Virus record (IMG/VR): IMGVR_UViG_3300013093_002504
Coordinates: 1-40,105 of that record
Direction: 5' to 3' (one strand)
Length of the DNA: 40,105 nt
From: a virus
The notes beneath the pieces were generated by a model that searched no databases, was not told where the DNA came from, and saw only the letters and a program-made list of their open reading frames with translations. Positions 6,349 through 38,735 of this stretch are shown here, piece after piece. Within the stretch, counting starts at the first letter, position 1. Each line of letters starts with the position of its first letter. A program made the translations under genes and the position numbers.

Positions 6349-6352
6349 AAAA

Positions 6353-6685: not shown

Positions 6686-6694
6686 GGATTAATT

Positions 6695-7081
6695 ATGTCA
6701 TATTATGCAGGTAATGAATTTAGTTTAAACGATTTATTAGGAGAAGGTAATCCTAGATATTTTTACGCCTTAACACGAAGCGACCCAGACGGCACTTTAT
6801 ATTTTTATAAAGCAGACCAATTAACTAGCACCGGCACACTTACTTTAAATAATCCCGGCGCTGGCCCTAATAACTTTGAAAACTTTGAATACGGTGTGGA
6901 CTTTTTTGACGGAAGAAATGCTGTAACACATGCAAGACCATATCCTAATTTAGCATTTGATCAATATCGATGGGACAATAAAAATTGTTTTTACTACATT
7001 GAAACTAATACTGGTGAGCTAATTGTTCGAATAAATCAAACATACACATATAGCCCTTCACAAATTATCTCATCGACTTAA
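6695..7081 (+). CDS. conserved virion structural protein of T4-like marine phages (128 aa)
   Basis: AAGGA precedes ATG 6695. The N-terminus MSYYAGNEFSLNDLLGEGNP, then RYFYALTRSDPDGTLYFYK, is one I associate with small uncharacterised structural proteins of cyanobacterial myoviruses. The remainder is acidic and aromatic, with FENFEYGVDFFDGRN and YIETNTGELIVRINQTY, and looks like a compact beta domain. It is directly upstream of the first giant gene, 12 bases apart, so it may help attach or assemble the giant protein (inference). There is no enzyme motif. Confidence 0.65.
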   Translation: MSYYAGNEFSLNDLLGEGNPRYFYALTRSDPDGTLYFYKADQLTSTGTLTLNNPGAGPNNFENFEYGVDFFDGRNAVTHARPYPNLAFDQYRWDNKNCFYYIETNTGELIVRINQTYTYSPSQIISST

Positions 7082-7093
7082 CAGGAATAAAAT

Positions 7094-22400: not shown

Positions 22401-25400
22401 AATCATTGATTGCAGGTCGTGCTTTCTATAGTTTAAATACACCATTAATTGTTAGCCCTTACACAGCAGGCGTTACAGCAGCCTTAAATAGATTGGCAGC
22501 AATCATTAGCAGTATTGTGACTGCTAATGCAATAAGCCCAACTTCAGGTAATACTACAAGTCAAAGTACAAGTGGTACAGCTGGATCTGCGGCCGCTGGT
22601 GCTTTTGCAGTGGCTCGTGTTGCCGATGTTCAATACTGGTTAGCTAACGGTGTACAAAACACAACAACTGGAGTAGGTACAGCAACATTTAGCGGTACAA
22701 CAATGACAGTTAGTGCTGTTGCAAGTGGTACTTTTGCCGTAGGACAAGCAGTGACTGGTACAACATTAACAACAACTGCAACAGCAGTTAACGGCAGTAC
22801 AGGTGTAGTGACATTAACATCTACTGTTGGTTTAGCATCAGGTATGCCAATTACATTTAGTGTTGCGTACGGATCTGGAAATCAAGGACTGTTTGGAAAC
22901 TTATCTGCTACAACTTACACAATTAATGCTGTTGTAGGTTCTACTGTTACACTATATAATTATGGAACAACAACTGCACCAAGCCTTACAACTGCAACAG
23001 GCCAACTGACAGTAACAGCAGGCGTTGCTCCAGGAACTTATATTACATCAATTGGCAGTACAGGCGGCGGAACCGGTGCATATACAGTAAGCGTAAGTCA
23101 AACATTGTCAACTGCTACAACAGTAACTGGAACATTTACAATTACACCTGTAGTGTCGGGCGCATTTAACTTTGCTTCACCTGCCAATCAATTGTCATTT
23201 AATGCAATCCAAGCTCAAGCAACATTAATTGCAAATGACGCTCAAGCATGGGTAACACGTTTTTTCCAAAACGAAGGTCCAAGTTTATCATTAACAAATA
23301 GAGATGCGGCCTATGTTGTTACAGCATTAAGTTACGATGTATTATTTGGTAGCAATTTCTATAGTATTATTAACGGACGAGCATTTAATAGATTAATTCC
23401 AAGTATTGCTCGTTTACAAGGCAACTACGCTGATTCAGCATATGGTGCAATTGGATTTATTGGACAAAAAATTAAAGTTATCGCATCAGCAGGCTCGGCA
23501 GTGCAAACACAGACAACTATTGACGATATGATTGCACAAATCTATGGTCAGCCAATAACTACTTGTGTGTTCAATGCTACTGTTAATGGAACACAATTAA
23601 TAGTGAACAATATTACTAGTGGTGCAATTGTACCAGGTATGCCAATATCTGGTATTGGTGTTGCAACTGGTACCTCAACAGTATCTGGCGCAACTACTAC
23701 ACTATCTGGAATTTATATTTCTAGTAATACTGGTGTATTTGGTTGTACAGCATTAACAAGCCCATTAGTGGTAGGTCAACAAGTTACTATCACTGGAACA
23801 TTCTCAGCAGGTTCTATTAGTGGCTATACTTCTGGTACAATTTACTATGTTATTGGTAGTCCGACAACTACATTATTCCAATTGTCAGCTACTCAAGGAG
23901 GAACTGCTTTAACAACTGTAGCCGCTGGATCAAGCGGAAGTCCATTAACAGGCATAACATTTGTAGCAAGCCCAACAACATGGTTGTTAAATTATAGCCA
24001 ATCAGTAAGCTCGACTGTTACATCTATTCAGAATATTATTCCTACATCTAATTTAATTACAATGGGAACTACTGCTGGAATGGTGCCAGGATTGAGTATT
24101 ACAATTACAGGTACAGCGATAGGCAATTTAACTGCTGGAACATACTATATTAAGCAAGTATTAAATACTACTCAACTAACAATTAGTTCATCTTACAATG
24201 GTTCTGTATTCAGTGTTACTCCGCTAACAACACTTAGTGGTGTTACTGTAACAAGTTCTGCAGGAACATTTACATGTACAGCGGCAAGCACAACATTAAC
24301 TACTGGACTACCAGTTACTATTTCTGGAACAAATACAGGTAGTGGTGGAATTTACGGATACAGTAGCCCAACTACATATTACATTGTTAATACAAATGGT
24401 TCAACAACATTTACATTATCAGCTTCTATTGGTGGTTCAGCAATTGTTACTACCGTAGGAACTCCAACTGGTTGGACATTTGCAGTAGGATCACAAGGTT
24501 CAATGGTTGCTACCGTATATGGAATTTACAGCGGATTAGCATTAACAACTAATCTTGTTGGCACAAGTACTAATATTCCTGTGACAGCAGTGACTACAAG
24601 TACTAATGCAATTACGTTAAGTAGCGATGCAGGTGTTTATATTAATATGCCTGTTGTGTTTAGCGGATTGCCAAATAATATTAACACAACTGCTATTTCA
24701 ACTACAACAAGTACAAATGTGATTACTTTAGCCGCAAGTGCAAGTAGTTTAGGAATTGTTGCAGGTCAACAAGTTTACTTCACTGGAATGATGTTAGGTA
24801 AGATTGTATTCAACCAAAATTATTACGTAATTAACCCAACAGGTAGCACTATTCAAATTAGTAATACATTAGGCGGAAGTGCTGTTTCATTAACAAGCAG
24901 TCCAACATTAAGCACAGTGGCTATTACAGGTACATCAGGTCAATTCTCTTGTGCAAGTTATAGCACTTTATATGTTGGCCAAGCAATTACAATTAATGGT
25001 ACATTATCTGCTGGTACAATTAATACTAACTCTACCATAACAGCTCAAACATTCTATATTATTGCTACAAATGGTTCAACAACATTTACGTTGTCAGCTA
25101 CTTTAGGTGGCGTAGCAATAGTTACAACTACAAGTGGTGGCACAATTACTGGTACAACATTTGGTGTAAATGCACAAATGAATGTTGTAGTTAATACAGC
25201 AGGCGGCCTAGTAAACGGCGATACTTATTGGGTTAATAGCGTTGCTTCTGGAACTTATCCAGCAGCCGGTACAACTATTACTGTTTCATCTAGTTATAAG
25301 AGTGGTACAGCAGTCGTAATTACAAATAGTTTGACTGGGTTGACTGCAACAGCAAGTATTGGATTATATACTAATCAAGGTATTGCTAGCAAGATTGTTA

Positions 25401-28400
25401 ATGGTATGAGTCAAGTATGGGGTAATCCAACTAATTCATATCAAAGCTATCCTGGTTACAACAATACTATGACAACCATAATGGGTGCAGAGTTATTCCG
25501 TCTAAATAAATCATTCTTAGCAGGTGAAGCCGCATTCTGGACACAGGCTAATTATGGTTCTACTTCAACTAGCACTACATCTGGTACTAATATAATTACA
25601 ACTAGCACTCCACATAATTTGTTAGTAAATGACCCAGTACAATTTGGTTTAACTGGTTCTATATTCGAATATGGTTTAAATTCTACTACAATTTACTGGG
25701 TATTATCTACACCAAGTTCAACTACATTTACAGTTACAACTACTCAACCAGGTACAGGCGCACAAAGTGCAGTATCATTAAGTGGTGGTACTGGAGCAAT
25801 GGGAGTAAATTATTATATTATTACTTCTAAAGCTACACGTGATGCAGGATATCACGTTGATGCTATGATTTACGATTTAGCGCTAACTGGAAATTATAAA
25901 TCTACTAGATCTGTACAATTATATTTGTCAGCCGCAAATGGTGCCTTATATACAAACTTATTCCATGTACGTAATGGTACTGGTATCCGTAACATGACAT
26001 TGAATGGCATGGGAGGAACATTAAGTTTACCAAATAGTTTAGGTACAAAACGTCCGACAGGCGGTATTTACACTTCATTAGATCCAGGATTCGGACCAAA
26101 TGATTCAAGTGTATGGGAATTCATTCGTTCATGCTACATTCAAAACGTTACTAACTTTGGTAATGGTTGCGTAGGATTAAAGATTGATGCCGCATTACAC
26201 AATGGTGGTAATAGATCTATCCTAGCTAACGATTACACTCAAGTGTTGTCGGACGGTATTGGTGTATACTGTACAGGTCATGGAGCCTTAACAGAGTGTG
26301 TATCAGTGTTTAATTACTACTGCTATTCTGGTTATTTTGCAGAATATGGCGGACGTATACGTGCTACAAACGGTAATAGTTCTTACGGTACATTCGGTGC
26401 AGTCGCAGAAGGTACTGATAGTTATGAAATTCCAGGTTATTCTACAATTAACAATCGTGGAAATCCTGCGTACATTACTAACGTGGTTACAGATGCAACA
26501 AATTATGTGTTCCGTTTAGAGTTTGAAAATGCTGGAAGTGCATATACTAACTATGTTCCAACAATTAGTGGCGCTGGTTATAATGCAGTTGCAATCGGAG
26601 ACGAGTTCCGAGATTCGGCTGTTTTTGAATCACGTTTAATTGACTTGAATAACGGTACAGGTGTTGGCGGTAGTAATTATTTGACTATTAGCAACACAGC
26701 ACAAAGTGGTACAGTTGGGCAAATTACTATTGCTAACTCTGATACTCAGTTAAGTACTGCTTACATTGGAATGCGAGTGTTTTTAACAGGCGGAACTGGT
26801 GTTGGACAATACGGTATTGCTCTAAACTATACATTTGGTTCAAAGATTATCAATGTATATCGTCAAAACTTTGTACCATTGACTATTATTAGTAATAGCA
26901 CATCGGTATTTACAGTATCGACAAATACAAATACAATGTATGCTAACCAACCAATTTATCTTAGTGCAACAATCGCAGGATTAACTTTTGCAACAGTATA
27001 TTATGTTGTTGGTTCGACATTAAGTAATAATGGTACTACGTTTAGTCTATCAACTTCAAGTGGTGGTGGCGCCGCAACATTGACAGCAACTAGTTCAACT
27101 CCAGCTGTTATGAATGGTTCAACTATTGTAGGAACGACATTAACAGTTGGAACATTAGCATCAGGTACTATATATGCAGGTATGTTATTATCTGGTTCTG
27201 GTATTGCAAGTAACACTTACATTTCAGCTAATATAAGCGGAAGTGGAAATGGTTCAACATGGACTGTTACTACGAGCCAAAACTTAGCTTCAACAAATAT
27301 TACAGGAACTATTTCTGTACAGTTATATGAAGCAGGATGGGATCATGCTGTTCCAGGTTATGCTACAGCTAATGTCTTAGATGCTACTACAACTTATATC
27401 ATAGAACCTATGTTATCATATAGTTCTCCTGGTTTTACAGCAACAACAACTTCTATAACTTCAGGACAATACGGATCAGCAACTTATGGTAGCGGTTCTT
27501 TTGTTGCTACAAGTTCGCCAGGAATAGTAACATCATATAGTACAAATGGTTCTACATGGAACGCTGGCGGATCGCTTCCTTCTAACACAGCATGGAATAA
27601 CGTTGTGTACGGTGGTGGCCAAGGTGCTAAAGGCACTGCTGTAATCGGCGGCCTAGGCGGATCTGGTGCAATATTATCAGCAATATTAGGTTCTGGATCT
27701 ACAGCTGGTCAGATAATTGGAATCAATATTATAAATGGTGGTAATAATTATTCAACACCTCCTACTATTGTTATTACTGACAGTACAGGAAACGGAGCTG
27801 TTGCAATTGCCGAAGTATTAAGTGGAGTTGTTACAAATGTTTATATGAACATTACTGGTAGTTTATATTCTTCCAGTCCAACTGTTACAGCGATTACTAG
27901 TGAATTAAGTGGCATTACTGTTAACAGCTGGGGTAATAATTATTTTAGTAATCCAACAGTAACTATTGCACCTCCGTTCAATGCAACATCTTGGGTATCT
28001 GGAGGAACAGTAGTAAATGGCAATTATTATTATAATGTAGATACTACAGTTTCACCAAATGTAACTAACTATTATCAAGCAGGCGCAACTGGAACTTTTA
28101 GTTCAACAGCACCTACCTTTACTAACAAGTACTATGGAAAATCTGGTGCTAGTGCAACTGGTATCGGTGCAAGCGGTACTTATGGCGTTGCTTTGACATA
28201 TGTAGGAAGTTTACCGATAGTAACGGCTAATTTAACTACTAATGGTGTAAGTAGCTACACAGTTGTACAAGCAGGTTTTGGTTACTCAACTATTCCTACT
28301 GTTACAGTTGTTGATCCTTATGCGGCTTACGCGGCAATTTCTGGTTCATCAAATGCATTTGCATATAATACTGGAGCACCTACTGCAAGTATTCAAGTAG

Positions 28401-31400
28401 TAGTTGCATCTAGTTCTGGTACAACTATTACTTTAGCATACGCGGTATCATTACCACAAAATACACCAATTACATTTGCATCAAGTTTTGGTGCAGGTCC
28501 AGGTGTAACTGCTAGCACAACATATTATGTTGCCGCAACAACAAGTAGTTCAACAAGTTTAACATTAGCATCATCAATTAATGGTAGTGCAATTACTATT
28601 GGAACAACTACTGGTTTAGCTATTATTGGAACAACATCTAATTCAACTACTTTAACAGCCGCTTGGCTATCAGGTAGTTCTACTGGACTAACTACATTAA
28701 AATCTTTAGCTTATGGTAATAATTATTATATTGCTGTTGGCGGAAGTGGTTCGGCTGCCGCGGTATCTTTATATAATAATACAAGTTTAGCTTCAGCATC
28801 ATGGGTAAATCAATCTAGTAGTATTACTGCTAACAGCTCAGGTTATACCGCAGTAGCATACGGTGCTGGTTTATTCTGCGCAATTGGAGGCACTGTAAGT
28901 TCCTTTATGCAAAGTAATCCAACAAGTTGGGCTACAGGCGGAACATTAACTAGTAAAACTTGGGCAAGTTTAGCATACGGTAATGGACGATTTGTAGCAT
29001 TAGCTACTGATGGTACACTACAATATACCTATAACTGGCAACCAAGTTTGTGGACTGGTACAAGTGCTACAAATAACACATGGATTACTGTAAAAAATAA
29101 TCCGTTAGTTACAACCGGAGTAACTACTTGGAGTAATATTAAGTATGCAGAAGGTTTATTTGTTGCAATTTCATCATCTCCAAATGAAGTATTCACAGCA
29201 ACTTCTGTTAGCGGAAATAATATTTCAGTAAGTAACACAACTGGTTTAGTAGCAGGTGCTACAATTATTCCAACAGCAGTAACAGAAATAACTACTGCGA
29301 GTGCTACTACACATTCAACAGCTAGTTCTTTAGGTATTATTGGTAACGGTGCATCTAGCCCATCAGCAGGAACCATCCTTACACCAATAAGTTCTATTAC
29401 TGGAACATATGCTGTAGGAGCGTTATTAACAAGTTCCGGAACAATAACTGCTGGAACTTATATTACAGCAAGTAATTCATTTACTTCAACTTCATCAACA
29501 ATTAGTGGATCAACATTAACAGTTGGTGGTACTATAACTGGTACTGTAAGTGTTGGACAGCAAATTACAGGTCCAACATTTAGTAATACTAGTGCGATAA
29601 TTTTAAATAGTTATTACACTAGTGCAAGCCCAACTAATGTATTGGTAATGCCAGCATCGGCACAAACTGGTACAACATTTGTTGGCGGATTACTAAGCGG
29701 TTCTGGTATTACTGCAAATACAACTTATATTACAGGACAAACTACTTCAACTGGTACTATTAGTATTGCTATTGGTTCTACTGCAAATATTACAGCAAGT
29801 ATTAGTGGAACGACTTTAACGGTTACTGCTAATAGCGGAACTATTAATATTGGTATGGTATTAGGCGGCGGAACTGTAGCGGCAGGAACATTTATTGTTG
29901 CTAACTCTGCAGGTACAACAACAAGTTCAGTAAGTGTATGGACTGTTAATATTAGTCAAAGTGCTACTGTAACTACAGCAACACCATATACTGCTACTGT
30001 ATCATCGGCAAGCGGTACATTCTTCCCAGGTATGACATTAACTGGTGGAACTGCAACAACAGGAACTATAGTTACTGCACAAGTTTCGAGTACAGCTGGT
30101 GCAGGCGGTACACAAAACTATTCATCAGGCGGCGCGGCAGGCGCATCAACAGTGACATTGGCTGCTGGTACAGGATTTGCCGCTGGTCAATTGATTACAG
30201 GTAATGGTATTTTTGCTAATACATACATTACAAGTGTAGCTGGTGCAGTAATTACAATTAGTCAACCATTCTACTCACAAGCATCTGGATCTTATACAAG
30301 TTTCACAGCTAGCTCTAATGGAGGTTATTATGTAACACCAGCACAAACTGGTACAACAGCAACTGGTGGTAATGCTTATACAGTTACATCTGGTGTTGGA
30401 TTTATTGCAACAACTACAATTTCTGGACAATTGAATTCGTATATTGTTGCAACAGGATCTGGATCAGGCGGTGCGGGTACATATACAATTAATAACAGCG
30501 TAACAATTAGTTCAGGTACAACAATTAACGGCCAAAGTTATACTGTATCTACTAGCCAATTGACAACTAGCGCAACTATTACAGGTACATTAGATTCAAT
30601 TACTGTCGGCAGTACAGCAGGAATGGCTATTGGAGAACCAATTGTATTCAGCGGCACAACTGGTGGTGGTATTACAAATGGTTCAACTTATTATATAACT
30701 GAAATTATTTCTAGTACCGCTTTAAGTGTTGGTTCAACTTATCTTGCAACAAGCAATGTAACAGTTAACGGATCTACTCCTCCGTCAAGCGTAGTTGCTG
30801 GCGGATTACTTGGAGGATTAACATCTGGAAATACTTATTATATTGCAAGTATTAACTCAGGTGCTAATACAATCCAAGTAAGTACAAGTAGCACATTAAG
30901 TCCAGTTCTTACATTATCAGGCGGTGTAGGTGCATGGACTGCTGTTGCAGGTGAAATTGGCGGTGGTAACAACTATGTTGCTACAAGTTGGGATGGCTTA
31001 AATTGGTATGTGACTACAATGCCAGCATTAAGTTCTTATCAAGGCCTTGCATTTGGTAATCCACAAAATGCTACTTTAGGTGCAGTGCCTACATGGGTAG
31101 CTGTTTCTAGCTCGCCAGGCACTACGGCAGCATTGATTCAGACTGGTGCTAGACCTTTAGGACGAGTTAAGATTTCAAGCAGTACTATTTCGGAAGTACG
31201 CATGATTGAACCAGGAAGTGGATTCCCACGTGGAAATGTATCTGGTACAACATCTACTACTAATTTGATTATAGTGGATAGCACTGTCAATTTAGCCGCA
31301 AATATGCCGGTTGTCTTTAACGGAACAAGTGCAGGAAATATTACTACAGGACAATATTATTATGTTGTCGGTGGAACTATTACAAGTACAACATTCCAAA

Positions 31401-32428
31401 TATCATTAACTGCTGGTAGTAGTGCTATACCTTTAACAAGTACAACAATTACTGGAATGACTTACTTTGCAGGTCCAACTATTACAATAGTTGATCCAAA
31501 CCACGTTAATAGCGCACCAATAGTTCCTCGTATCGGTAACGGTGTTTTAGGTAATCCTAGCTTTACTAATCGAGGTGTTGGTGAAACTACTGCTACAAGT
31601 ATTGTTAGCGGAGATGGATATTCAGATTTATATCAAATTGGTAACTATATTAATGTTTCAGGACTATACAGTATTCCTAGCCCAGGTTCAAATGTAACAT
31701 TTGCTACTATCACAGGTAGTGCTCAATGGTATAAACTAGTTGCAGTTACAAATCAATTAGGTATTCCAGGTAACTATACTGCAACATTCCAGATTAATCC
31801 TGCAATGTCTGTATTGTTAGCACCACCGCACGGTACACAAATAACAACTAGATTGTTATACAGCAATACACGTATGACAGGACACGATTTCTTGTATATT
31901 GGAACTGGTGGTTTCACAAGTACCAACTATCCAAACGTTGATCCTTCTAAAGCTGTAACAGCTAATCAAACATTTGCTACAGGCGGTGGTCGTGTGTTCT
32001 TTACAAGTACAGACCAAGACGGTAACTTTAACGTAGGTAACTTGTTCGGAGTTCAACAGTCAACTGGTACTGCTACATTGAACGCTAGTGCGTTTAATTT
32101 GTCAGGATTGCAAAGTTTGACGTTGGGTTCAGTTAGCCTAGGAGTTGGCTCTGCAACTATTACACAGTTTAGTACAGATCCATATTTTACAGCTAATAGC
32201 GATGCGATTGTTCCGACACAAAAGGCTATTAAAGCATATATTACTAGTCAAATTGGAGGCGGACAAAGTGCATTGAACGTAAATACCATAACATCTGGAC
32301 AGATATATATTGCTGGTAATACTATAAGTACAACTACAGGAAATCAAATCTACGTAAGTAGCAAGATGCTGTTCACAGGCGGAATTGACGGAGCACCAGT
32401 TGCATTGTCATTCTTTGGACAAAAATAA
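16499..32428 (+). CDS. giant modular adhesin-like structural protein (5309 aa), paralogue of 7094-16450
   Basis: AGAGGATGA precedes ATG 16499. At over half a megadalton it is very large for a phage protein. Domains in order: seven CBM5/12-like repeats (about 8-560; second and seventh split by insertions); TRLPIGTDGQILRVNG (about 575); beta-helix start VYVAPTGQD...KPWASLLFAC (about 605); TGTYNEYGPIVVPQDTAILGD (about 905); an expansion of about 2200 residues with helical RDAG/YDxxxGSN units and beta-rich YYV/TFTLS repeats (about 936-3110); beta-helix core (about 3153-3310) with LHNGGNRS, DYTQVLSDGIGVY and GRIRATNGNSSYGTFG; a seven-blade propeller with two long insertions (about 3645-4895); and the conserved C-terminal domain (about 5011-5309) with TGHDFLYIGTGGF, STDQDGNFNVGNLFGVQQST and PTQKAIKAYI. 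It is probably a long host-binding appendage. It has its own late promoter. Confidence 0.8.
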   Translation: MAEFKLGRIKFVYQGTWTTSTTYVVDDVVTNGGKTYICVLAHTSSALFATDLAGGAGTTKWNLIADGQSWKGTWGNSTLYNPGDLVEYGSTIYQCTTANTSVASTLTITATGLALSSGTATLTFANQTSGIPFVVGQQITLSGFSPSQTSGTVNNVNTTFTVLTCSNTNLTFALTGTYVLATPGTVSGTGYLESQINDWTVFASNLNWSNAWATSTKYKINDFVYYGGVTYVCNTAHISASTATAGLESNSGFWSTFNAGLNYIGTWTSATRYKLNDIVKYGADLWICTVPHTSSGSTINTTNFSMFVNGLEFQNSWSNSINYAIGDLVTYGGYTYTAIQNNIGQVPSTQTAYWQIFTTGLTFSGAWVSGTAYKIGDIVTLGGFTYVAAADNTGSQPATGNANWSQLNPGIRWAQPSVYTYSGISGINVVGTGTAATFDITLTGTTYSVVVHTGQAGGGYSVGNTIKILGTNLGGLSPANDIILTVATVLGNAIATVTVTSGFAVTWRTGITYLIGDAVYYGNSSYICVSSHVGSTGVNDPVSDTSATYWNILAQGANGGVLTSTGDMVYFGANGATRLPIGTDGQILRVNGNVPSWAYYGLLQNIVYVAPTGQDIVGNSQGQSLDKPWASLLFACKQIEDGYLNTNAGLALKINKQFMLKEVNNWILNQYSFNVTGSSVSGNTFIVGGSSTSSQTTTANMYYGMPITFTTAVTSQITPGTVYYVNTIPSATTFTISTSYKSGATLPITGGSSTSGTVIFSYTQSKAERDAGTLIDAVIFDLTHGGNLYCITATQAFFSTLTSYITTNAGYEMTVWIASLQYLENTLFSAVLTNSPPQYNYQTTQGIPVSSQAIQNTSEIATSNIEQGALTTVKSLLSIVTNALAAGTYAGNPLLQRPHTSIYLKTGTYNEYGPIVVPQDTAILGDELRSTIVQVASAQPYLGNDTTRTASALRRIQWLLPAISANIPVIPTSTNTATQQYLGTSPYGTFTSNVNTNVTLIQTILAGGLSAVPGAGTTTITITAGSITVPNTGTYTLTTPVGFGSTLSNIAFACSSNATGSTVGYDGGIAQIQQNISFIQTEIAAFMNANYNSVWTAMGSTNQGYTLRDVGYLLNSIIYDMNYGGNTQSQIDGLAYYSLGTASIISGYQAATVAMMTRLQSIIPYIVTANTGSWTKTSGNTASQVTSGAAGSTNAATFATGLVTTVLNWVNSTNGTGNSLSTGAGLNGTIPPCTSWVNSANLTAFNNIQTNRTAIQTWIKNWVANDYPAISSSLTYRDAGTITDALSYDLLLGSNYFSMVSGRAFYRLVTSAENLVGNVNNELTVTEQAINYIGAQVAGYANGSTTPAGASGSAINLGNSQVIPSLVANSQLLQNILSNGLTYSPVFGSGSVIISQSALASVVNNSTTGIAYTSTTVALPVGTPITITRTSSGTAITGNLTIGGVAISAIASGASVTYYTGSTTTATSTALYANYANAIASSSPLTIGGTTTTGATFTIGITTPTAGTFTLTTPTGFNTSSLTNTAYSITGLGVSGYTGNTTGDTTGYGYGAANIAANISFLQTEIANYLNAYTGSGFSWNALSAVNQGKTLRDLSYILQSVQYDMTYGGNLQSQTQGVGYYSLGVASLSPASTVAASIASLTRLQTIIPYIVNGTTVGWTPSTGNTATQVIVTSGTYTNAATYAQALIGNIINWINGTNGTGNSASTGIGLSGTVLPCTSWVSASAISAFNAINAQKSYVQTQIQTFVATQYPNNVTNLALTYRDAGTVVDTLNYDMLLGSNYFTLVSGRSFYKAVSSAQALVSSTELSATEIATQYIAYYISGIATQALTLPALTGDFGNPAAVNLVVNNTAIIQNMFANGLTITPGIQNNTNYGANLGIVQEPAFNMPTVANYNTYYLVGYGYAVTQLQNNYQFIKDEIVAYLIQTIGGSTWANYGPTYQAETIRDLSNILDALQYDMTYGCNDQSLIAGRAFYSLNTPLIVSPYTAGVTAALNRLAAIISSIVTANAISPTSGNTTSQSTSGTAGSAAAGAFAVARVADVQYWLANGVQNTTTGVGTATFSGTTMTVSAVASGTFAVGQAVTGTTLTTTATAVNGSTGVVTLTSTVGLASGMPITFSVAYGSGNQGLFGNLSATTYTINAVVGSTVTLYNYGTTTAPSLTTATGQLTVTAGVAPGTYITSIGSTGGGTGAYTVSVSQTLSTATTVTGTFTITPVVSGAFNFASPANQLSFNAIQAQATLIANDAQAWVTRFFQNEGPSLSLTNRDAAYVVTALSYDVLFGSNFYSIINGRAFNRLIPSIARLQGNYADSAYGAIGFIGQKIKVIASAGSAVQTQTTIDDMIAQIYGQPITTCVFNATVNGTQLIVNNITSGAIVPGMPISGIGVATGTSTVSGATTTLSGIYISSNTGVFGCTALTSPLVVGQQVTITGTFSAGSISGYTSGTIYYVIGSPTTTLFQLSATQGGTALTTVAAGSSGSPLTGITFVASPTTWLLNYSQSVSSTVTSIQNIIPTSNLITMGTTAGMVPGLSITITGTAIGNLTAGTYYIKQVLNTTQLTISSSYNGSVFSVTPLTTLSGVTVTSSAGTFTCTAASTTLTTGLPVTISGTNTGSGGIYGYSSPTTYYIVNTNGSTTFTLSASIGGSAIVTTVGTPTGWTFAVGSQGSMVATVYGIYSGLALTTNLVGTSTNIPVTAVTTSTNAITLSSDAGVYINMPVVFSGLPNNINTTAISTTTSTNVITLAASASSLGIVAGQQVYFTGMMLGKIVFNQNYYVINPTGSTIQISNTLGGSAVSLTSSPTLSTVAITGTSGQFSCASYSTLYVGQAITINGTLSAGTINTNSTITAQTFYIIATNGSTTFTLSATLGGVAIVTTTSGGTITGTTFGVNAQMNVVVNTAGGLVNGDTYWVNSVASGTYPAAGTTITVSSSYKSGTAVVITNSLTGLTATASIGLYTNQGIASKIVNGMSQVWGNPTNSYQSYPGYNNTMTTIMGAELFRLNKSFLAGEAAFWTQANYGSTSTSTTSGTNIITTSTPHNLLVNDPVQFGLTGSIFEYGLNSTTIYWVLSTPSSTTFTVTTTQPGTGAQSAVSLSGGTGAMGVNYYIITSKATRDAGYHVDAMIYDLALTGNYKSTRSVQLYLSAANGALYTNLFHVRNGTGIRNMTLNGMGGTLSLPNSLGTKRPTGGIYTSLDPGFGPNDSSVWEFIRSCYIQNVTNFGNGCVGLKIDAALHNGGNRSILANDYTQVLSDGIGVYCTGHGALTECVSVFNYYCYSGYFAEYGGRIRATNGNSSYGTFGAVAEGTDSYEIPGYSTINNRGNPAYITNVVTDATNYVFRLEFENAGSAYTNYVPTISGAGYNAVAIGDEFRDSAVFESRLIDLNNGTGVGGSNYLTISNTAQSGTVGQITIANSDTQLSTAYIGMRVFLTGGTGVGQYGIALNYTFGSKIINVYRQNFVPLTIISNSTSVFTVSTNTNTMYANQPIYLSATIAGLTFATVYYVVGSTLSNNGTTFSLSTSSGGGAATLTATSSTPAVMNGSTIVGTTLTVGTLASGTIYAGMLLSGSGIASNTYISANISGSGNGSTWTVTTSQNLASTNITGTISVQLYEAGWDHAVPGYATANVLDATTTYIIEPMLSYSSPGFTATTTSITSGQYGSATYGSGSFVATSSPGIVTSYSTNGSTWNAGGSLPSNTAWNNVVYGGGQGAKGTAVIGGLGGSGAILSAILGSGSTAGQIIGINIINGGNNYSTPPTIVITDSTGNGAVAIAEVLSGVVTNVYMNITGSLYSSSPTVTAITSELSGITVNSWGNNYFSNPTVTIAPPFNATSWVSGGTVVNGNYYYNVDTTVSPNVTNYYQAGATGTFSSTAPTFTNKYYGKSGASATGIGASGTYGVALTYVGSLPIVTANLTTNGVSSYTVVQAGFGYSTIPTVTVVDPYAAYAAISGSSNAFAYNTGAPTASIQVVVASSSGTTITLAYAVSLPQNTPITFASSFGAGPGVTASTTYYVAATTSSSTSLTLASSINGSAITIGTTTGLAIIGTTSNSTTLTAAWLSGSSTGLTTLKSLAYGNNYYIAVGGSGSAAAVSLYNNTSLASASWVNQSSSITANSSGYTAVAYGAGLFCAIGGTVSSFMQSNPTSWATGGTLTSKTWASLAYGNGRFVALATDGTLQYTYNWQPSLWTGTSATNNTWITVKNNPLVTTGVTTWSNIKYAEGLFVAISSSPNEVFTATSVSGNNISVSNTTGLVAGATIIPTAVTEITTASATTHSTASSLGIIGNGASSPSAGTILTPISSITGTYAVGALLTSSGTITAGTYITASNSFTSTSSTISGSTLTVGGTITGTVSVGQQITGPTFSNTSAIILNSYYTSASPTNVLVMPASAQTGTTFVGGLLSGSGITANTTYITGQTTSTGTISIAIGSTANITASISGTTLTVTANSGTINIGMVLGGGTVAAGTFIVANSAGTTTSSVSVWTVNISQSATVTTATPYTATVSSASGTFFPGMTLTGGTATTGTIVTAQVSSTAGAGGTQNYSSGGAAGASTVTLAAGTGFAAGQLITGNGIFANTYITSVAGAVITISQPFYSQASGSYTSFTASSNGGYYVTPAQTGTTATGGNAYTVTSGVGFIATTTISGQLNSYIVATGSGSGGAGTYTINNSVTISSGTTINGQSYTVSTSQLTTSATITGTLDSITVGSTAGMAIGEPIVFSGTTGGGITNGSTYYITEIISSTALSVGSTYLATSNVTVNGSTPPSSVVAGGLLGGLTSGNTYYIASINSGANTIQVSTSSTLSPVLTLSGGVGAWTAVAGEIGGGNNYVATSWDGLNWYVTTMPALSSYQGLAFGNPQNATLGAVPTWVAVSSSPGTTAALIQTGARPLGRVKISSSTISEVRMIEPGSGFPRGNVSGTTSTTNLIIVDSTVNLAANMPVVFNGTSAGNITTGQYYYVVGGTITSTTFQISLTAGSSAIPLTSTTITGMTYFAGPTITIVDPNHVNSAPIVPRIGNGVLGNPSFTNRGVGETTATSIVSGDGYSDLYQIGNYINVSGLYSIPSPGSNVTFATITGSAQWYKLVAVTNQLGIPGNYTATFQINPAMSVLLAPPHGTQITTRLLYSNTRMTGHDFLYIGTGGFTSTNYPNVDPSKAVTANQTFATGGGRVFFTSTDQDGNFNVGNLFGVQQSTGTATLNASAFNLSGLQSLTLGSVSLGVGSATITQFSTDPYFTANSDAIVPTQKAIKAYITSQIGGGQSALNVNTITSGQIYIAGNTISTTTGNQIYVSSKMLFTGGIDGAPVALSFFGQK
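16520..18180 (+). repeat. seven tandem CBM5/12-like repeats in the 5309-aa protein
   Basis: Units such as YQGTWTTSTTYVVDDVV, YIGTWTSATRYKLNDIVKYG and FSGAWVSGTAYKIGDIVTLGG follow the same consensus as the array at 7127. The second unit carries an inserted beta segment and the seventh an inserted GTGTAATFDIT...YSVGNTIKILG module. The equal copy number in both giants suggests the array is structural, not freely expanding. Confidence 0.75.
19440..23580 (+). repeat. three tandem units with paired RDxxxxxD..YDxxxG(G/S)N motifs
   Basis: Each unit has one motif of type TLRD..Y.L.S..YDM.YGGN (about 19814, 21271, 22333) and one of type RDAGT..D.L.YD.LLGSN (about 20325, 21787, 23299). The two are about 170 residues apart in the first two units and further apart in the third, where a beta repeat is inserted. 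Between them recur RLQ.IIPYIV and NGTNGTGNS...PCTSWV. Single copies also lie at about 18799 and 25834 and, in the other giant, at 8857. Confidence 0.75.
27430..31180 (+). other. seven-blade propeller interrupted by two long insertions
   Basis: Seven blade-like segments are visible (for example YGSATYGSGSFVATSS, LKSLAYGNNYYIAVGGS, YTAVAYGAGLFCAIGG, WASLAYGNGRFVALATDG, WSNIKYAEGLFVAISSS). Blade 2 is broken by about 1.1 kb (27610-28690) with NGGNNYSTPPTIVI-type repeats. Blade 6 is broken by about 1.8 kb (29194-30958) of GSGITANTTYITG-type repeats before NNYVATSWDGLNWYVT completes it. Confidence 0.6.
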
Positions 32429-32450: not shown

Positions 32451-32795
32451 ATGGCAGGATCAGGAATAAAAGCAACTACCCAACTAACATCGGGTGCAAT
32501 TGGAACGTATACATTATTGTATAATGTTCCGGCAGGATATTACGGTGTTTACAATATTTCATTTACGAATACAACATCTACGGCTGCAAATATTAGATTA
32601 TATATTGGTTCTAGTACTGCGGCAGTTTCAGGACAAGTTCTAAGTGAAGCGTTTGAATATCAAACATCTGTAACTGGATATGGAGTTTTTGAACGTACCG
32701 GTATTGTAATCCAAGCTGGTGCTAATATTGTAATTTCTAGTTCAGGTACCGCTATGAACATTAATTTATACGGTATTGAAACATCAACAACTTGA
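32451..32795 (+). CDS. small beta-rich virion protein (114 aa)
   Basis: GGAGAG precedes ATG 32451, 22 bases after the giant gene. The protein has ATTQLTSGAIGTYTLLYNVP, VYNISFTNTTSTAANIRLYI and a C-terminal GANIVISSSGTAMNINLYG. Length and strand pattern suit a single beta-sandwich comparable to the small proteins at 1248 and 6353, though identity is low and the relationship is tentative. It may be a capping or decoration subunit for the giant fibre encoded just upstream. No enzymatic motif is visible. Confidence 0.6.
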   Translation: MAGSGIKATTQLTSGAIGTYTLLYNVPAGYYGVYNISFTNTTSTAANIRLYIGSSTAAVSGQVLSEAFEYQTSVTGYGVFERTGIVIQAGANIVISSSGTAMNINLYGIETSTT

Positions 32796-32831: not shown

Positions 32832-33563
32832 ATGGCTCGATATAATTCATCAGTTCCAGCAACGACAATTACAACTACGACATCTCAAACTGCTCCTAAT
32901 CAGGGATTGTTTACTGAATTTACTGGTACTGCTCCGTATACTGTTACTATTCCCGACCCTACAATCTTTAACGGACAGACGCAAACATTTTATAATGCCA
33001 CTTCAGGTGTAATTACTTTATCTACTCCTACAGGCGTATTTAATGGTCCAGGCGGTTCGACTACATCAACTCAAGCAATTGTGTCAGGTGGAACAGTAAT
33101 TCTTGCTTCAGACGGCAGTAATTATGTTCAAGTATTAGGTTCAGGTGGTCCGATTAATGGTACAACAATCACAACAACTGGTAATGCGTCTATTGGAGGC
33201 ACAAACTCTAATATACAAATAAACCCAACTGGTACTGGTTATGTAGCTATTACTGCATCTAGCGGCAATCTTGCGATAGGTACAGCTGGAAGTGCAACGC
33301 TGAGAGTGTTGGGTAATCTTGTAGTAGTTGGTAGAGAAACAAGTATCACACAACCTATTTCTAGTGGAAATTATACATACGATGGTAATAATAGGATAAC
33401 GCAATTTGTAGACGGTAATAAAACAACAAGTTCTATTACATACGATGGAAGTAATAGAATTAGTGGATTTACTGAGACAATTACAGACTCATACTCGGGA
33501 GCGACATATACGCAATCAAGAACGGTTACGTATACATCTCAAGGCGATCCTATCATAACATAA
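32832..33563 (+). CDS. short fibre-like protein with YD-repeat-like C-terminus (243 aa)
   Basis: The N-terminal half is Thr/Ser/Gly rich with FTGTAPYTVTIPDPTIFNGQ and TQTFYNATSGVITLSTPTG, a fibre pattern. The middle has SNIQINPTGTGYVAIT and TLRVLGNLVVVGRETSITQP, resembling the shaft segments of the upstream fibres. Residues about 182-190 and 203-211 carry YDGNNRITQF and YDGSNRISGF, matching the core of Rhs/YD repeats, which normally form large beta cocoons or wrap around a sugar-binding shell. Two copies are too few for a cocoon, so here they may form a short beta tip. The gene follows its own late promoter. The structural role is likely; the YD relation is inference. Confidence 0.62.
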   Translation: MARYNSSVPATTITTTTSQTAPNQGLFTEFTGTAPYTVTIPDPTIFNGQTQTFYNATSGVITLSTPTGVFNGPGGSTTSTQAIVSGGTVILASDGSNYVQVLGSGGPINGTTITTTGNASIGGTNSNIQINPTGTGYVAITASSGNLAIGTAGSATLRVLGNLVVVGRETSITQPISSGNYTYDGNNRITQFVDGNKTTSSITYDGSNRISGFTETITDSYSGATYTQSRTVTYTSQGDPIIT

Positions 33564-33582
33564 AGAAAAAGAGGAAGATATA

Positions 33583-34449
33583 ATGGATGTTTTAGTAAAC
33601 AATAGGATACAAAATGCAAACTGTAATATTTCAGGTTTGCAAACTTGTATCACAAATACAAATTCAACATTGTCAACGGCCGGTACTAATATCAGCGGTT
33701 TGCAAACTTGTATACAAAATACAAATACTTGTGTAGGTAGCGTTTTATCTTGCGTACAAGGTGCTAACTCATGTAATAGTAGTATTTTAACTTGCGTACA
33801 AGGTGCAAATTCAAATATTAGTGGTTTGCAAACTTGTATACAAAATAAAGCTACAGGAACACTTGGCGCTGAATTGATTGGACAAACTAATAACAACTAC
33901 ATCGGTTGTCTATGTGTCTCTAAACCAGGCAAGTTCCAACATTATAAAATTATCGGTTCTATGTGTTGCTGGACTTATTATTGTTCACAAATGACATTTG
34001 GGTTTGCTGGTGGATGCGGTGGTGGCTGTTCTGCTAACAATGCCGGTAGTTATTGTTGCAACCAGTGGGCTTGCGGAATTGTATATAATTCAAAGTGTAA
34101 CAATGGTTCATATCAGTGGTCTTGTGCAGGAAATATTACATGGGCATTTGGTTGTAGTAGTGGTTGTTATACAGCATGTTCTGGAAATGGTTTTACTTTT
34201 GAAATTGATATTTTCCCAGATGATATTTGTAATCAACAGCTTGGATTCAAATGGCATATGAGAAATCCAATGGGTGCTAACGGCGGAGGTCAAATGTGCT
34301 GTTTTGGTATAGAAAATGCAGGCTATGCATGTAATTGTTGTGGTGCTGATCCATCTTGCTTACAGTATGTATGTTTTACAACACCTAGTGCGTCGTGTAC
34401 AGTTGGTTGCGGACAATGGGCAATTTACGGATACAACAGATTAGCATAA
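33583..34449 (+). CDS. cysteine-rich fibre protein with coiled-coil stalk (288 aa)
   Basis: AGAGGAAG precedes ATG 33583. Residues 9-89 form an unbroken heptad series: a positions are almost all Ile or Val (9, 16, 23, 37, 44, 51, 58, 72, 79, 86) and d positions include Leu 19, 40, 82, Val 54 and Ile 68. Cysteine occupies the g position at 22, 43, 50, 57, 64, 71 and 85. Beta-branched core residues favour a trimer. Residues 90-288 form a head with about 25 further cysteines, many in CC or GC pairs. In all I count 33 Cys, about 11%. No zinc-finger pattern of regular CxxC pairs stands out. It is probably a trimeric receptor-binding tip, disulfide- or metal-stabilised (inference). I do not recognise a family. 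Confidence 0.65.
   Translation: MDVLVNNRIQNANCNISGLQTCITNTNSTLSTAGTNISGLQTCIQNTNTCVGSVLSCVQGANSCNSSILTCVQGANSNISGLQTCIQNKATGTLGAELIGQTNNNYIGCLCVSKPGKFQHYKIIGSMCCWTYYCSQMTFGFAGGCGGGCSANNAGSYCCNQWACGIVYNSKCNNGSYQWSCAGNITWAFGCSSGCYTACSGNGFTFEIDIFPDDICNQQLGFKWHMRNPMGANGGGQMCCFGIENAGYACNCCGADPSCLQYVCFTTPSASCTVGCGQWAIYGYNRLA
33607..33849 (+). repeat. DNA repeats encoding the cysteine-striped coiled coil
   Basis: The phrase GGTTTGCAAACTTGTAT recurs at about 33633, 33700 and 33825, and CTTGCGTACAAGGTGC recurs at about 33750 and 33791. Spacing follows multiples of 21 bases, one heptad. The array could expand or contract by heptads without breaking the frame. Confidence 0.7.
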
Positions 34450-34464
34450 AAATGGAATTCAAAA

Positions 34465-34965
34465 ATGAATAAATCAGATTTTTATAAAACGTGGTATGTT
34501 AGACATGGACAACCGTTGAATGAGTACGGATATCCTCCTGTACTATGGCAAGCTCTACCAATAACAGATGAAACCGAATGGCAAGCATTTCTCCAAATGG
34601 AGCCAGATCCAGAAGATTTTGTATTATATAATGAAGAAGCTGCCAACCATGCCGGTGTGCCATATACTAAACCACACAAGTATGCTAGAACGTATCCGGC
34701 TTTAGCTGAACAATTAGATGGAATTTATAAAGCATTAATGGCTGTTAAAGCATCTGGCATTGATTTAGGCGCAGAAGGAAATGCATATTTAGATAGTATT
34801 ACTGCTATTAAAACAGCACATCCAAAAACTCCAGATTGGAAAGTTCCAGATCCGTCTACACTTGGTGCAACATCTACACCTGACGGTGGTAATGGTATCG
34901 CACCTGCAATGCCAGCGGCAAAAGTTATCAATCCTTTTCCAATAACAAATAATCCTCCTGCATAA
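34465..34965 (+). CDS. hypothetical tail-associated protein (166 aa)
   Basis: The start follows the cysteine-rich gene by 15 bases with a weak GGA upstream. The N-terminal part has FYKTWYVRHGQPLNEYGYPP and VLWQALPITDETEWQAF. Residues about 72-92 have YARTYPALAEQLDGIYKAL, close to the YP...EQLD motif that, from memory, recurs in tail-fibre accessory or chaperone-like proteins of Caudoviricetes. The last 45 residues are rich in Pro, Ala, Asn and Gly and probably disordered. No cysteine is present, in contrast to the gene before. Likely a small fibre-assembly or attachment factor, at modest confidence. Confidence 0.55.
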   Translation: MNKSDFYKTWYVRHGQPLNEYGYPPVLWQALPITDETEWQAFLQMEPDPEDFVLYNEEAANHAGVPYTKPHKYARTYPALAEQLDGIYKALMAVKASGIDLGAEGNAYLDSITAIKTAHPKTPDWKVPDPSTLGATSTPDGGNGIAPAMPAAKVINPFPITNNPPA

Positions 34966-35036: not shown

Positions 35037-36197
35037 ATGAATAAAACAACCAAAAAAGCATTTGTAATCAACGGTGGCGCCGGCCGTGTTCTCTGTGCAA
35101 TTCCAGGGCTAGAGCATTATGCAAAAACACACGACGGTGATATAATCATCATTTCCGAAGCGTGGAGCGAATTATATCTTTCAAGCAATATTTTAAGAGA
35201 TAAAGTATATCAACTTAATGATAGAAATCTTTTTAATGTAATAAAAGATCGAGAAGTAATCAGCCCTGAACCTTATCGACTTAACGCATATTTTAATCAA
35301 AAAGCTAACATGATTCAAGCATTTGATATGCTTATTAATTATGATACGCCACCTGAAAAAATACCAGAAACAAAAAAATACGAATTAAACATTGGCAAAT
35401 CGGATCAGGTATTCGGTTATAACTCCATAGAAGAAATACGAAAATTATATAAACGAGATAAAGTTGTTGTATTCCAACCATTTGGTAGTGGAATAAAACA
35501 AAACGGATCATTTATTTTTGATGAAACAGGCAGATCATTCGAACCGAAAGATGTAAAAAGAATTGTAATGGAATTAGCTAAACACTATGCTGTCATATTG
35601 TTCAGTAATATTAATCCATTTCCTGAGGATAGCACAGTTCCAGTAGTAGTTCCACCAAATGTAAACTTATTACAATGGTCCGGTATTATTAATGCCGCAG
35701 ATTATTTTTTAGGATGCGACTCTATAGGGCAACATTTTGCTAATTTCTTAAATAAACCTTCAACAGTTGTTATTGGTGCAACATATCCTGAAAATATTTC
35801 ATATCCTGAAAATAAACGATTTAAAATCTTTGATTTAGGTAAAGAAAAAAGAAAATATTCTCCATTACGAATAACTCAGGATTTTGCGGTAGAACGAAAC
35901 AATGAAGATTTAATGGTGTTAACTGAAGATAATTTCAGAGCAATTATTAAAAGTATTCAACAAGTGTTAGGTACAAAAAAAACATATACTCCGCCGGATA
36001 ACAATCTACCAGCATTAAATGTTCCATCAATAACTACACCGTCTAACAATTTATCTAGCATTCTTTTACCAGGTGAAGATTCTACAGAAATACCTCCTGA
36101 AATATTAGAAGTAAGAAAACTAGGAGCAGATTTAAATCTAGAACAACCTGTTCCTCCTTGGTGCCAACAACCAACCAAACAAATAGGAGAAAGATAA
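35037..36197 (+). CDS. GT9-like glycosyltransferase (386 aa)
   Basis: The fold appears to be GT-B of the heptosyltransferase (GT9) kind. The N-terminal motif INGGAGRVLCAIPGLEHYA matches the family's GDVxxxxPAL loop, and the C-terminal motif NAADYFLGCDSIGQHFANFL, followed by KPSTVVIGATYPE, matches its donor-binding DSGxxHxA loop (Asp 228, His 233). The catalytic Asp usual in the first loop is Arg 17 here, so activity or mechanism may differ. Residues about 320-386 are a Pro-rich tail. There is no clear ribosome binding site and no other usable early Met. The next gene starts inside the stop codon (TAATG). It probably transfers a sugar in a surface glycan pathway, or is a degenerate glycan-binding relative. 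Confidence 0.68.
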   Translation: MNKTTKKAFVINGGAGRVLCAIPGLEHYAKTHDGDIIIISEAWSELYLSSNILRDKVYQLNDRNLFNVIKDREVISPEPYRLNAYFNQKANMIQAFDMLINYDTPPEKIPETKKYELNIGKSDQVFGYNSIEEIRKLYKRDKVVVFQPFGSGIKQNGSFIFDETGRSFEPKDVKRIVMELAKHYAVILFSNINPFPEDSTVPVVVPPNVNLLQWSGIINAADYFLGCDSIGQHFANFLNKPSTVVIGATYPENISYPENKRFKIFDLGKEKRKYSPLRITQDFAVERNNEDLMVLTEDNFRAIIKSIQQVLGTKKTYTPPDNNLPALNVPSITTPSNNLSSILLPGEDSTEIPPEILEVRKLGADLNLEQPVPPWCQQPTKQIGER

Positions 36198-37990
36198 TGA
36201 GTCGTATGAACACGGGTTATATTTTAGGAATTTCTCGAGGGCACAATGCCGGAGTTTGTTTATTGAAAGATGGGGAGATCGTTTTTAGTATCGAAGAAGA
36301 ACGGCTAAGTAGATTAAAATATGATGGTTCTCCTTTTGCCGGAATGAAAAAGGTGTTAGATTATACAGACAAAATAGATTACTTAATTATTTGTCACACC
36401 CAACCTCTTGTTGGCGCTGGTAAAATTGAATATACTGGTGAAGATATGTATACAGGATATGCAAGAAAATTAGGACTGATCGATCGTAAAGAAGACAGAT
36501 TTAATCATCCTCAAGTTATTGATATAAGTAATCAACATCATAAAGTACATGCTTCGGCAGCATTTTATCGTTCAGGATTTAAAAATGCTACCGCTGTCGT
36601 TGTCGATGGCGCTGGATCTGAATATATATCTAATAACGAAAGTTTATGGGAAGTTGAATCTATCTTCGAATGTTCGTATGATACTGGAATTGTTACTAAG
36701 TTTAAACATCTTGGTTGTAGAAGTCCTATTGCAAATGTTTATGTTAATAAAGCAAAGATGGAATATTTTGACGAAACTGATAATACAGTTGAATTAGTCA
36801 TAACAGATCATGCAGGTATAGTAAAGTGTTATGAATCTGTGACAGAATATTGTGGCTTTTCGGCCATCGAAGCAGGAAAAACAATGGGGTTATTCCCATA
36901 TGGTTCCGCAGACAACAATCTTCCTTCATTATTTCAAAAGGATATGAAATTCCCAATTTCTAATAGAAATATTGTCATACCTACATATCCTAATAGTGCT
37001 ATATTAAATTCTGCAATGCATGAAGCGTTGGAAGAGTGGCCGACTTCAGAATCAATAGATCCCACTACTATGACAAATAGAAGAAATGCGGCATATTGGG
37101 TTCAAACACAAACACAACAAGCGGTATTAGATTTTATTATTAAAGCAGTAGAAAAAACAGGTAATAAAAACGTTGTACTTAGCGGTGGATATGGTTTGAA
37201 TTGTGTTGCTAACTATTTTTATCTTAATAAATTAAACGAGTTAGGCATTAATTTATATGTTGAGCCAGTATCAAATGATGGCGGAACTGCTATTGGCGCC
37301 GCATTATTCTGGTATCACTTGTCATCTCAAAGTACTAAACAACGGGAAAGATTTGATTCTATATATCTTGGTCCTAAATATGATTATAGCATTGAATATA
37401 TCGAAAATGCTGTAAGTAGTGTATCAGGAACTATTGAAGATTGTACCACAACTGACATCGTATCACTTTTAAGAGATAAAAATATTGTTACTATATTTCA
37501 AGGTAGATCAGAAAACGGACCAAGAGCGTTAGGTAATAGATCAATTTTATTTGATCCGACTTTTAAAGACGGAAAAAATTATGTTAATCGTGTAAAAAAT
37601 AGAGAATATTTTAGGCCTTTCGCCGGATCGATATTAGAAGAACATGTTCACGATTGGTTTGACCTTAGAGGTATGCCTAACAGCCCCCATATGATGTATG
37701 CTGTAAACTGTCAAGAAGGTGTAGCTGAAAAAATTCCTTCAGTTATTCATGAAGACGGTACTTGTCGAATTCAGACAGTAACAAAAATTCAGAACGAATA
37801 TTTTTATAATTTAATAGAAGAATTCTATAAAGAAACTGGTATACCTATGTTATTCAACACCTCGTTTAATTTAGGCGGAGAACCATTAGTAGAAACAATA
37901 GAAGATGCGCTATGGACTTTAGAAAATTCTTTAATTGAGTATTTGTATTTGCCTGAATATAATAAACTTATTACCATAAAGAATGGCTAA
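36197..37990 (+). CDS. carbamoyltransferase, NodU/CmcH/TobZ family (597 aa)
   Basis: The chosen start is ATG 36197, with AGGAGA 7 bases upstream and an overlap with the previous stop; a longer frame from 36158 has no such site. The N-terminal Kae1-like domain shows YILGISRGHNAGVCLLKDG, EEERLSRLK, the metal-binding histidines HHKVHASAA (114, 115, 118), VVVDGAG, GKTMGLFPYG, LSGGYGLNC and NDGGTAIGAA. The C-terminal YrdC-like domain shows GPRALGNRSIL, YFRPFAGSI and NTSFNLGGEPLVETIEDA. All major family motifs are present, so it should be active. The family moves carbamoyl from carbamoyl phosphate, via an adenylate, to a hydroxyl group of a sugar or other acceptor; some phage members are reported to act on hydroxymethylcytosine in DNA. 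Context favours a glycan here, but this is not proven. Confidence 0.9.
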   Translation: MSRMNTGYILGISRGHNAGVCLLKDGEIVFSIEEERLSRLKYDGSPFAGMKKVLDYTDKIDYLIICHTQPLVGAGKIEYTGEDMYTGYARKLGLIDRKEDRFNHPQVIDISNQHHKVHASAAFYRSGFKNATAVVVDGAGSEYISNNESLWEVESIFECSYDTGIVTKFKHLGCRSPIANVYVNKAKMEYFDETDNTVELVITDHAGIVKCYESVTEYCGFSAIEAGKTMGLFPYGSADNNLPSLFQKDMKFPISNRNIVIPTYPNSAILNSAMHEALEEWPTSESIDPTTMTNRRNAAYWVQTQTQQAVLDFIIKAVEKTGNKNVVLSGGYGLNCVANYFYLNKLNELGINLYVEPVSNDGGTAIGAALFWYHLSSQSTKQRERFDSIYLGPKYDYSIEYIENAVSSVSGTIEDCTTTDIVSLLRDKNIVTIFQGRSENGPRALGNRSILFDPTFKDGKNYVNRVKNREYFRPFAGSILEEHVHDWFDLRGMPNSPHMMYAVNCQEGVAEKIPSVIHEDGTCRIQTVTKIQNEYFYNLIEEFYKETGIPMLFNTSFNLGGEPLVETIEDALWTLENSLIEYLYLPEYNKLITIKNG

Positions 37991-38735
37991 CATACAACAA
38001 TTTGTTTGCATGAGTGGATTGCCGAGAACAGGGTCCACTCTGCTTTCGGCAATACTTTCTCAGAATCCCAACATACATTCTGAAGGAAACTCTGCTGTTT
38101 GTCAGTTAATGGTAGATATGGACACTTCATGTAAAGAAGCATGCAAGGAACAATTAATTGCCAATAATAGAGAAAGTACTAGAATAGATTTAATTAAATC
38201 TATACCAAATGTTTATTATAAAAATGTAACTGCTCCTATAGTAGTTGATAAATGCAGACACTGGACGATTCCAGAAAATCAAGTACTATACAACTATATT
38301 ACTGACAATCCGAAAACTATAGTTCTTACTCGCCCGACGGAAGAAATTATTAAATCGTTAATACATTTACACGAAGAAAATAACTACGGTGGTAATTTGG
38401 AACAACAGTTAATTGCTACATGGATACCACCGATAATACATTCGATTAACGGTATTAAATGGGCTAAACAAAATAATAACGGCGAATTTTTATTTGTCAC
38501 TTACGAAGAATTAGTAACTCAAACTTCAGAAACTATAAAAAAAATATATTCTTTTTGCGAATGGGAAAGTTTTGATCATGATTACAATGAAATTGTAAAT
38601 CAACATCCAGAAAACGATCATGTCTACAACTTATTAGGTATGCATGATGTTAGATCGACAATATCAAAACGAAACTTAAATACTCAACTAAGTCCTGCAA
38701 TGCTAAAAAAATGCAGAGATTTAGATTTATATTAA
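37983..38735 (+). CDS. sulfotransferase family protein (250 aa)
   Basis: It overlaps the carbamoyltransferase end by 8 bases, indicating coupled translation. The 5'-phosphosulfate loop is SGLPRTGSTLL (11-21). The 3'-phosphate site is IVLTRPTEEIIKSL with Arg 117 and Ser 125, the same eight-residue spacing as in known PAPS sulfotransferases. A YEELVTQTSETIKKIYSF segment is also usual in the family. The enzyme should move sulfate from PAPS to a hydroxyl or amine on a glycan or small molecule. It has no signal peptide or membrane segment, so it acts in the cytoplasm. With its neighbours it suggests decoration of a glycan by carbamoyl and sulfate groups. The acceptor is unknown. Its 3' end overlaps the convergent Nudix gene. 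Confidence 0.85.
   Translation: MANIQQFVCMSGLPRTGSTLLSAILSQNPNIHSEGNSAVCQLMVDMDTSCKEACKEQLIANNRESTRIDLIKSIPNVYYKNVTAPIVVDKCRHWTIPENQVLYNYITDNPKTIVLTRPTEEIIKSLIHLHEENNYGGNLEQQLIATWIPPIIHSINGIKWAKQNNNGEFLFVTYEELVTQTSETIKKIYSFCEWESFDHDYNEIVNQHPENDHVYNLLGMHDVRSTISKRNLNTQLSPAMLKKCRDLDLY

Follow-up and report, generated by a model that had tools for sequence, protein, structure and literature searches.

The cysteine-rich gene and its neighbours

The cytoplasm in which phage proteins are assembled is reducing, and such proteins seldom use many disulfides. The locus described here raises the question of what a protein in which about one residue in nine is cysteine does behind the tail-fibre genes of a virus. 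It lies in the window, by which we mean the whole 40,105-nucleotide stretch of viral DNA that was analysed (IMG/VR record IMGVR_UViG_3300013093_002504), where the open frame at 33583-34449 (+) encodes a product of 288 aa containing 33 cysteines (11.46%). The genes of the locus are as follows.

16499..32428 (+): giant tail-fibre protein, 5,309 aa, with a C-terminal match to annotated Kyanoviridae tail fibre proteins
32451..32795 (+): 114-aa protein, the equivalent of the relatives' 105-108 aa gene between the fibre and Cys-rich genes
32832..33563 (+): small structural gene, RHS-like repeat, 243 aa, no Cys
33583..34449 (+): Cys-saturated probable tail-fibre tip protein (composition, homologues, pN/pS)
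34465..34965 (+): Cys-free partner, 166 aa, phrog_2504-like
35037..36197 (+): GT9-like glycosyltransferase, marker of the cyanophage Cys-rich cassette
36200..37990 (+): NodU/NolO-type carbamoyltransferase (PF16861, PF02543; gene order)

The count of 33 cysteines and the cysteine-filled head reported by the first-pass annotation were confirmed, the head having 25 Cys. Its remark that the neighbouring genes are nearly cysteine-free holds for the structural ones (0-0.6% Cys: none in the 243-, 114- and 166-aa proteins, 22 in the giant protein of 5,309 aa and 20 in that of 3,118 aa) and does not extend to the downstream enzymes, with 0.8-2.8%.

The frame is real and constrained, as follows from its low pN/pS, its synonymous TGT/TGC changes and its diverged synonymous sites. 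Compared with the nearest relative (L009), the head codons give a pN/pS of 0.32 (0.32-0.66 over all pairs), and 7 of the 24 shared Cys codons differ only as TGT/TGC, which rules out a frame or codon artefact. The Cys-rich ORFs on the opposite strand over the repeats, 33516-33896 (-) and 33141-33404 (-), look like mirror-frame by-products of the coding strand.

The window protein matched no known Pfam or PDB family and no PDB sequence. Of deposited sequences, one, from marine virus AG-345-P14 (Kyanoviridae), had a homologue of its head; the other homologues found were on IMG/VR contigs, and one such contig (L001) matches the C-terminus of the window protein itself at 100% identity. The nearest relative is the lineage L009/L010/L011, with 300 aa, 40 Cys and 61% identity to the window protein. 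Pattern searches, which were not exhaustive, found no such head in bacterial genomes. No psbA, which would serve as a host marker, was found in the relatives' contigs, all of which are fragments; the 108 kb parent contig of the striped relative L010 is among them, so nothing in it points to a cyanobacterial host.

The window and its relatives have the same run of genes: the fibre, then small genes, one or more Cys-rich genes, the partner, the GT9-like gene and the carbamoyltransferase. In seven of seven loci the head gene is directly followed by a member of the partner family (120-166 aa, Cys-poor), which is probably an assembly partner or chaperone.

Other phages with cysteine-rich proteins at this locus

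Cultured cyanophages carry comparable proteins at this place: two in P-SSM2 (10.1% Cys), three in S-SSM7 (10.6-11.5%), three in Sf-FS3 (9.4-10.8%) and three each in S-CAM1 and S-CAM3 (8.0-11.6%). In the complete genome of S-CAM1 they are the top three in cysteine among the 129 ORFs of at least 120 aa, and ORFs with less than 6% Cys have a mean of 0.79%; one of the three was called longer than in the record, giving 10.0% vs 11.2% Cys. The equivalent locus of marine virus AG-345-O18 encodes two such proteins, one of 758 aa with 73 Cys and one of 290 aa with 31 Cys.

L018:7007-8077, 8806-9873: reference-cyanophage Cys-rich proteins (8-12% Cys, annotated hypothetical)
L022:10205-13005; L020:7860-10253: as above
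L019:7860-10273; L023:10279-13097: as above
L054:4015-6291 and 6288-7160: AG-345-O18 Cys-rich proteins, whose heads, judged by eye, differ from the others
33583..33621 (+): N-terminal docking peptide MDVLVNNRIQNAN of the window protein, aa 1-13 (HHalign)

The cultured-cyanophage proteins that were compared (PSSM2_304, PSSM2_306; SSSM7_114-116; SXBG_00224-00226; phrog_35878, phrog_4205) are all 'hypothetical' in their records. They resemble the window protein in locus and in cysteine content (8-12%), and those of the P-SSM2 type also in having the N-terminal docking peptide and a short coil, but they differ in their beta/glycine-rich head (WTVPxG...WGAGGG), which is not alignable with that of the window, and in having no cysteine stripe. 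When the head family was compared with the P-SSM2-type Gly/Cys-rich family by HHalign, only residues 1-18 aligned, with 56% identity. Unalignable heads that share a docking peptide are what would be expected of interchangeable tips on one fibre.

The GT9-like gene is accompanied by Cys-rich genes in every cyanophage or marine-virus lineage whose locus was inspected; AG-345-E02, outside that set, has a homologue of PSSM2_304. In Pelagibacter phage Mosig a fibre is present, the fibre region holds no Cys-rich protein or annotated carbamoyltransferase, and nothing matches the GT9-like gene. Two Vibrio phages carry a distantly related GT9 gene, and no nearby protein of theirs exceeds 4.4% Cys. Beside a GT9-like gene, Vibrio virus vB_VspP_SBP1 encodes a tail family protein (L056:7739-10516) of 925 aa, 41 of them Cys (4.4%), which may represent a Cys-rich tip in a different group of phages.

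These arrangements bear on whether the product belongs to the virion. It might instead be a secreted or intracellular protein that merely lies beside fibre genes; the reference phages inspected give such proteins no structural annotation, and we found no virion proteomics or other mass-spectrometry evidence for any family member. We consider such a role outside the virion highly improbable given the docking peptide common to the alternative heads, the constant place after the fibre genes and the resemblance of the beta head to phage fibre proteins.

The head: conservation and cysteine pairing

33880..34446 (+): Cys-rich head, aa 100-288, 25 Cys, predicted all-beta (seven-sequence alignment, models)

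The head was aligned for the window protein and six relatives. Seventeen of the 25 head cysteines are invariant in all seven sequences, compared with 20 of 159 other residues (Fisher p ~1.6e-8). The 17 invariant cysteines and the downstream partner are both present in the window, the family having been defined from these same sequences. The first-pass annotation took free replacement of the cysteines among homologues as evidence against its reading; this is clearly not the behaviour of the head, and it is partly that of the stalk.

Some head cysteines change in pairs. At columns 105 and 225, five relatives have Cys at both places and the window and L009 at neither; at columns 102 and 162, the six relatives have Cys at both and the window at neither. 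C145 is absent in three relatives that carry C140 instead. These changes, with two paired losses among them, are suggestive of disulfides in the head. Some heads have an odd number of cysteines (25 in the window; 23 in L005 and in L015), so not every cysteine can pair within one chain.

The main rival to disulfides is a metal-thiolate tip, in which the head clusters and the stalk stripe would bind Zn, Fe, Cu or Fe-S, either for stability or as a lure for a metal-scavenging host. The cysteine density would suit it, as would the C-x3-C-x3-C motif at 191-199 and the CC pairs at 158, 239 and 252, all conserved in the seven sequences, and phage fibres offer a precedent in the His-x-His iron sites of T4 gp37 (PMC11705849). 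We nevertheless regard it as unlikely, though a real contender: the window protein has just two histidines, both isolated (H120, H225), its sequence contains no HxH motif of the kind that marks iron-binding tail fibres, it matched no known metal-site family, and paired losses of distant cysteines fit disulfides better.

The structure models were computed as monomers from 6-sequence alignments. That of the window protein has a mean pLDDT of 44, with a helical stalk at very low confidence; that of the short-stalked relative L005 has a mean pLDDT of 56, a pTM of 0.63 and an all-beta head, the core strands of the head model reaching a confidence of 70-79. Fold matches to the head model among predicted phage proteins extend down to E 2e-6 and include one named tail fiber protein. 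A fold search of the PDB gave no significant match, and no solved adhesin was matched by sequence or fold. The models thus support a fibre-type beta head and nothing further. Together with the gene order, the predicted head and its phage-protein matches favour the fibre-type protein proposed at first pass, an identity that rests on gene order and fold class and not on a family match.

The stalk and the cysteine stripe

33622..33855 (+): heptad stalk with Cys at g, aa 14-91 (heptad phase, hydrophobic periodicity)

Seven stalk cysteines (C22, C43, C50, C57, C64, C71 and C85) share a single phase modulo 7, whereas C14 is out of phase; three heptads of the stretch have another residue there (T at 29, N at 36 and 78). 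Random placement put seven cysteines in one phase in 1 of 100,000 shuffles. With cysteine unscored, the hydrophobic residues of the stalk have a period of 3.5, which none of 5,000 shuffles equalled in strength; a chance heptad phase was rejected by the two tests together. Heptad column 2 is 90% hydrophobic (a) and column 5 is 70% hydrophobic (d), and the cysteine column immediately precedes the a column, which places it at g. As hydrophobicity was scored without cysteine, this assignment is independent of the cysteines, and it bears out the earlier placement of Cys at g of seven heptads between residues 22 and 85. For the coiled coil itself, the heptad periodicity is significant, and the helical stalk of the models has very low confidence. 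The stalk contains no Asp, Glu, Arg or His, and one Lys, at its end.

A 'minor head protein' label (phrog_19577) was rejected, the match being confined to the coil (residues 5-88). In that Bacillus phage Grass protein, x-[IV]-S-x-L-[KQ]-T heptads match the window stalk, with Asp at the position of the window's Cys; the coil-only match is probably due to composition.

The N-terminus of L009 has Cys at the stripe phase in 10 of 12 heptads. Without gaps, the g column reads CTNCCCCCNC in the window vs CCCSCCNCCC in L009: the phase is kept and single heptads exchange C for T, N or S, so that cysteine content differs in 5 of 10 heptads. The stripe has no counterpart in the five other relatives, whose N-termini are Cys-poor or short. 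The C-x6-C register is kept in phase in L009 and absent from the other relatives, and the stripe is clade-specific, with L009/L010/L011 the one other lineage among the relatives found; it is not supported as a conserved core of the design. A scan for C[IV]xNTNTC[IV] returned further striped stalks on the L009 contigs only, its other 21 stretches being short or out-of-phase chance frames, and a scan with the full protein added none.

Cross-linking of the subunits of one trimer by the stalk cysteines, as the first-pass annotation had suggested, would be in keeping with the heptad phase retained in two diverged proteins. By general coiled-coil geometry, the g-g' distance in a parallel trimer is too long for a disulfide. 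With its cysteines at g, too far apart, and with facing e positions that are N, Q, L, G or A in the window and never Cys, the stripe should not cross-link its own trimer; individual heptads also interchange C with T, S or N, and the Grass coil has Asp at this position. We therefore hold such cross-linking to be highly unlikely. An outward stripe suggests bonding to something beyond its own trimer, or metal binding.

Proposed role and relation to known systems

The explanation that we prefer, to which as a whole we would give about an even chance, is that of a docked and trimeric distal tail-fibre adhesin with an interchangeable Cys-rich head that forms disulfides after lysis. The gene product would form the distal tip of the long tail fibre in a T4-like myophage of Kyanoviridae type. 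The short N-terminal peptide would dock the tip on the fibre, the heptad stalk would trimerise it and the beta-rich head would contact the host. The protein would fold reduced inside the cell and, after lysis, at least 17 conserved head cysteines would oxidise to disulfides clamping long receptor-binding loops. The tip would be one of several interchangeable heads at one locus, all with about 8-12% Cys. The stalk thiols at g would flank the core and point outward, more likely bonding to a neighbouring fibre or partner or binding metal than stapling their own trimer.

Oxidation after lysis is proposed on the basis of the paired cysteine changes and of Agrobacterium phage Milano, the virions of which contain many tail disulfides, including in the tail spike and short fibre (PMC10811340). 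The likeness would lie in Cys-rich virion proteins with disulfides in fibres too (PMC10811340). Milano averages 2.1% Cys over all structural proteins, whereas the window has 11.5% in one protein and no such enrichment across its structural neighbours (0-0.6%). Some Milano disulfides must be reduced before tail contraction (PMC10811340), which could point to a redox switch in the tip, with disulfides that lock it in oxic water and reduction at the host surface that releases or triggers attachment. No reductant partner or switchable pair was identified and the near-saturated cysteine pattern looks structural, so that we see only a faint prospect for such a switch.

The adhesin that we favour would also have counterparts in architecture. 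Pam3 gp24 has N-terminal helices, a beta domain and a receptor tip, with gp25 as its partner chaperone (PMC9608196). Pam3 gp24 and S16 gp38 have the plan that is proposed for the window protein, with helices for docking and trimerisation, a beta domain, a variable tip and a partner chaperone, and their placement, after the tail-fibre genes and with a small partner gene, is also found in the window. They differ in showing no detectable sequence match to the window protein and in tips built on glycine-rich motifs rather than cysteine. The Pam3 tip is 39% Gly, and cysteine is nowhere named in the text on Pam3 (PMC9608196); in the window head, 28 of 184 residues are Gly, and a GGGGxGG run of the glycine-rich kind does not occur.

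Tail-tip adhesins and disulfide-rich virions are both already known. Neither locus-wide Cys-saturated alternative heads nor a g-position cysteine stripe is reported in the papers searched, a search that many subscription papers fell outside, and the principal comparative study of these phages (PMC3037559) does not use the word 'cysteine' in its main text. A wider reading, which we judge quite unlikely, is that aquatic T4-like phages possess a dedicated tail-tip system in which unrelated heads all rely on dense thiol chemistry, as a disulfide or metal network that is finished only outside the cell, and in which one clade has added an outward stalk thiol track that bonds fibres to one another or to the host surface. 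The several heads with 8-12% Cys in cultured cyanophages make the virion-tip question and that of disulfide versus metal testable now. The answer bears on the stability of receptor-binding proteins of abundant marine phages in oxic, sunlit water, on host recognition by cyanophages, of which little is known, and possibly on trace-metal chemistry.

Two further features of the window stand beside the tip gene. Upstream, two giant genes are adjacent, 7094-16450 (3,118 aa) and 16499-32428 (5,309 aa), the latter far exceeding its cultured-cyanophage equivalents (1,090-1,477 aa). Downstream, 35037-38735 encodes the GT9-like glycosyltransferase, the carbamoyltransferase and a sulfotransferase, which might modify either the fibre or a surface sugar.
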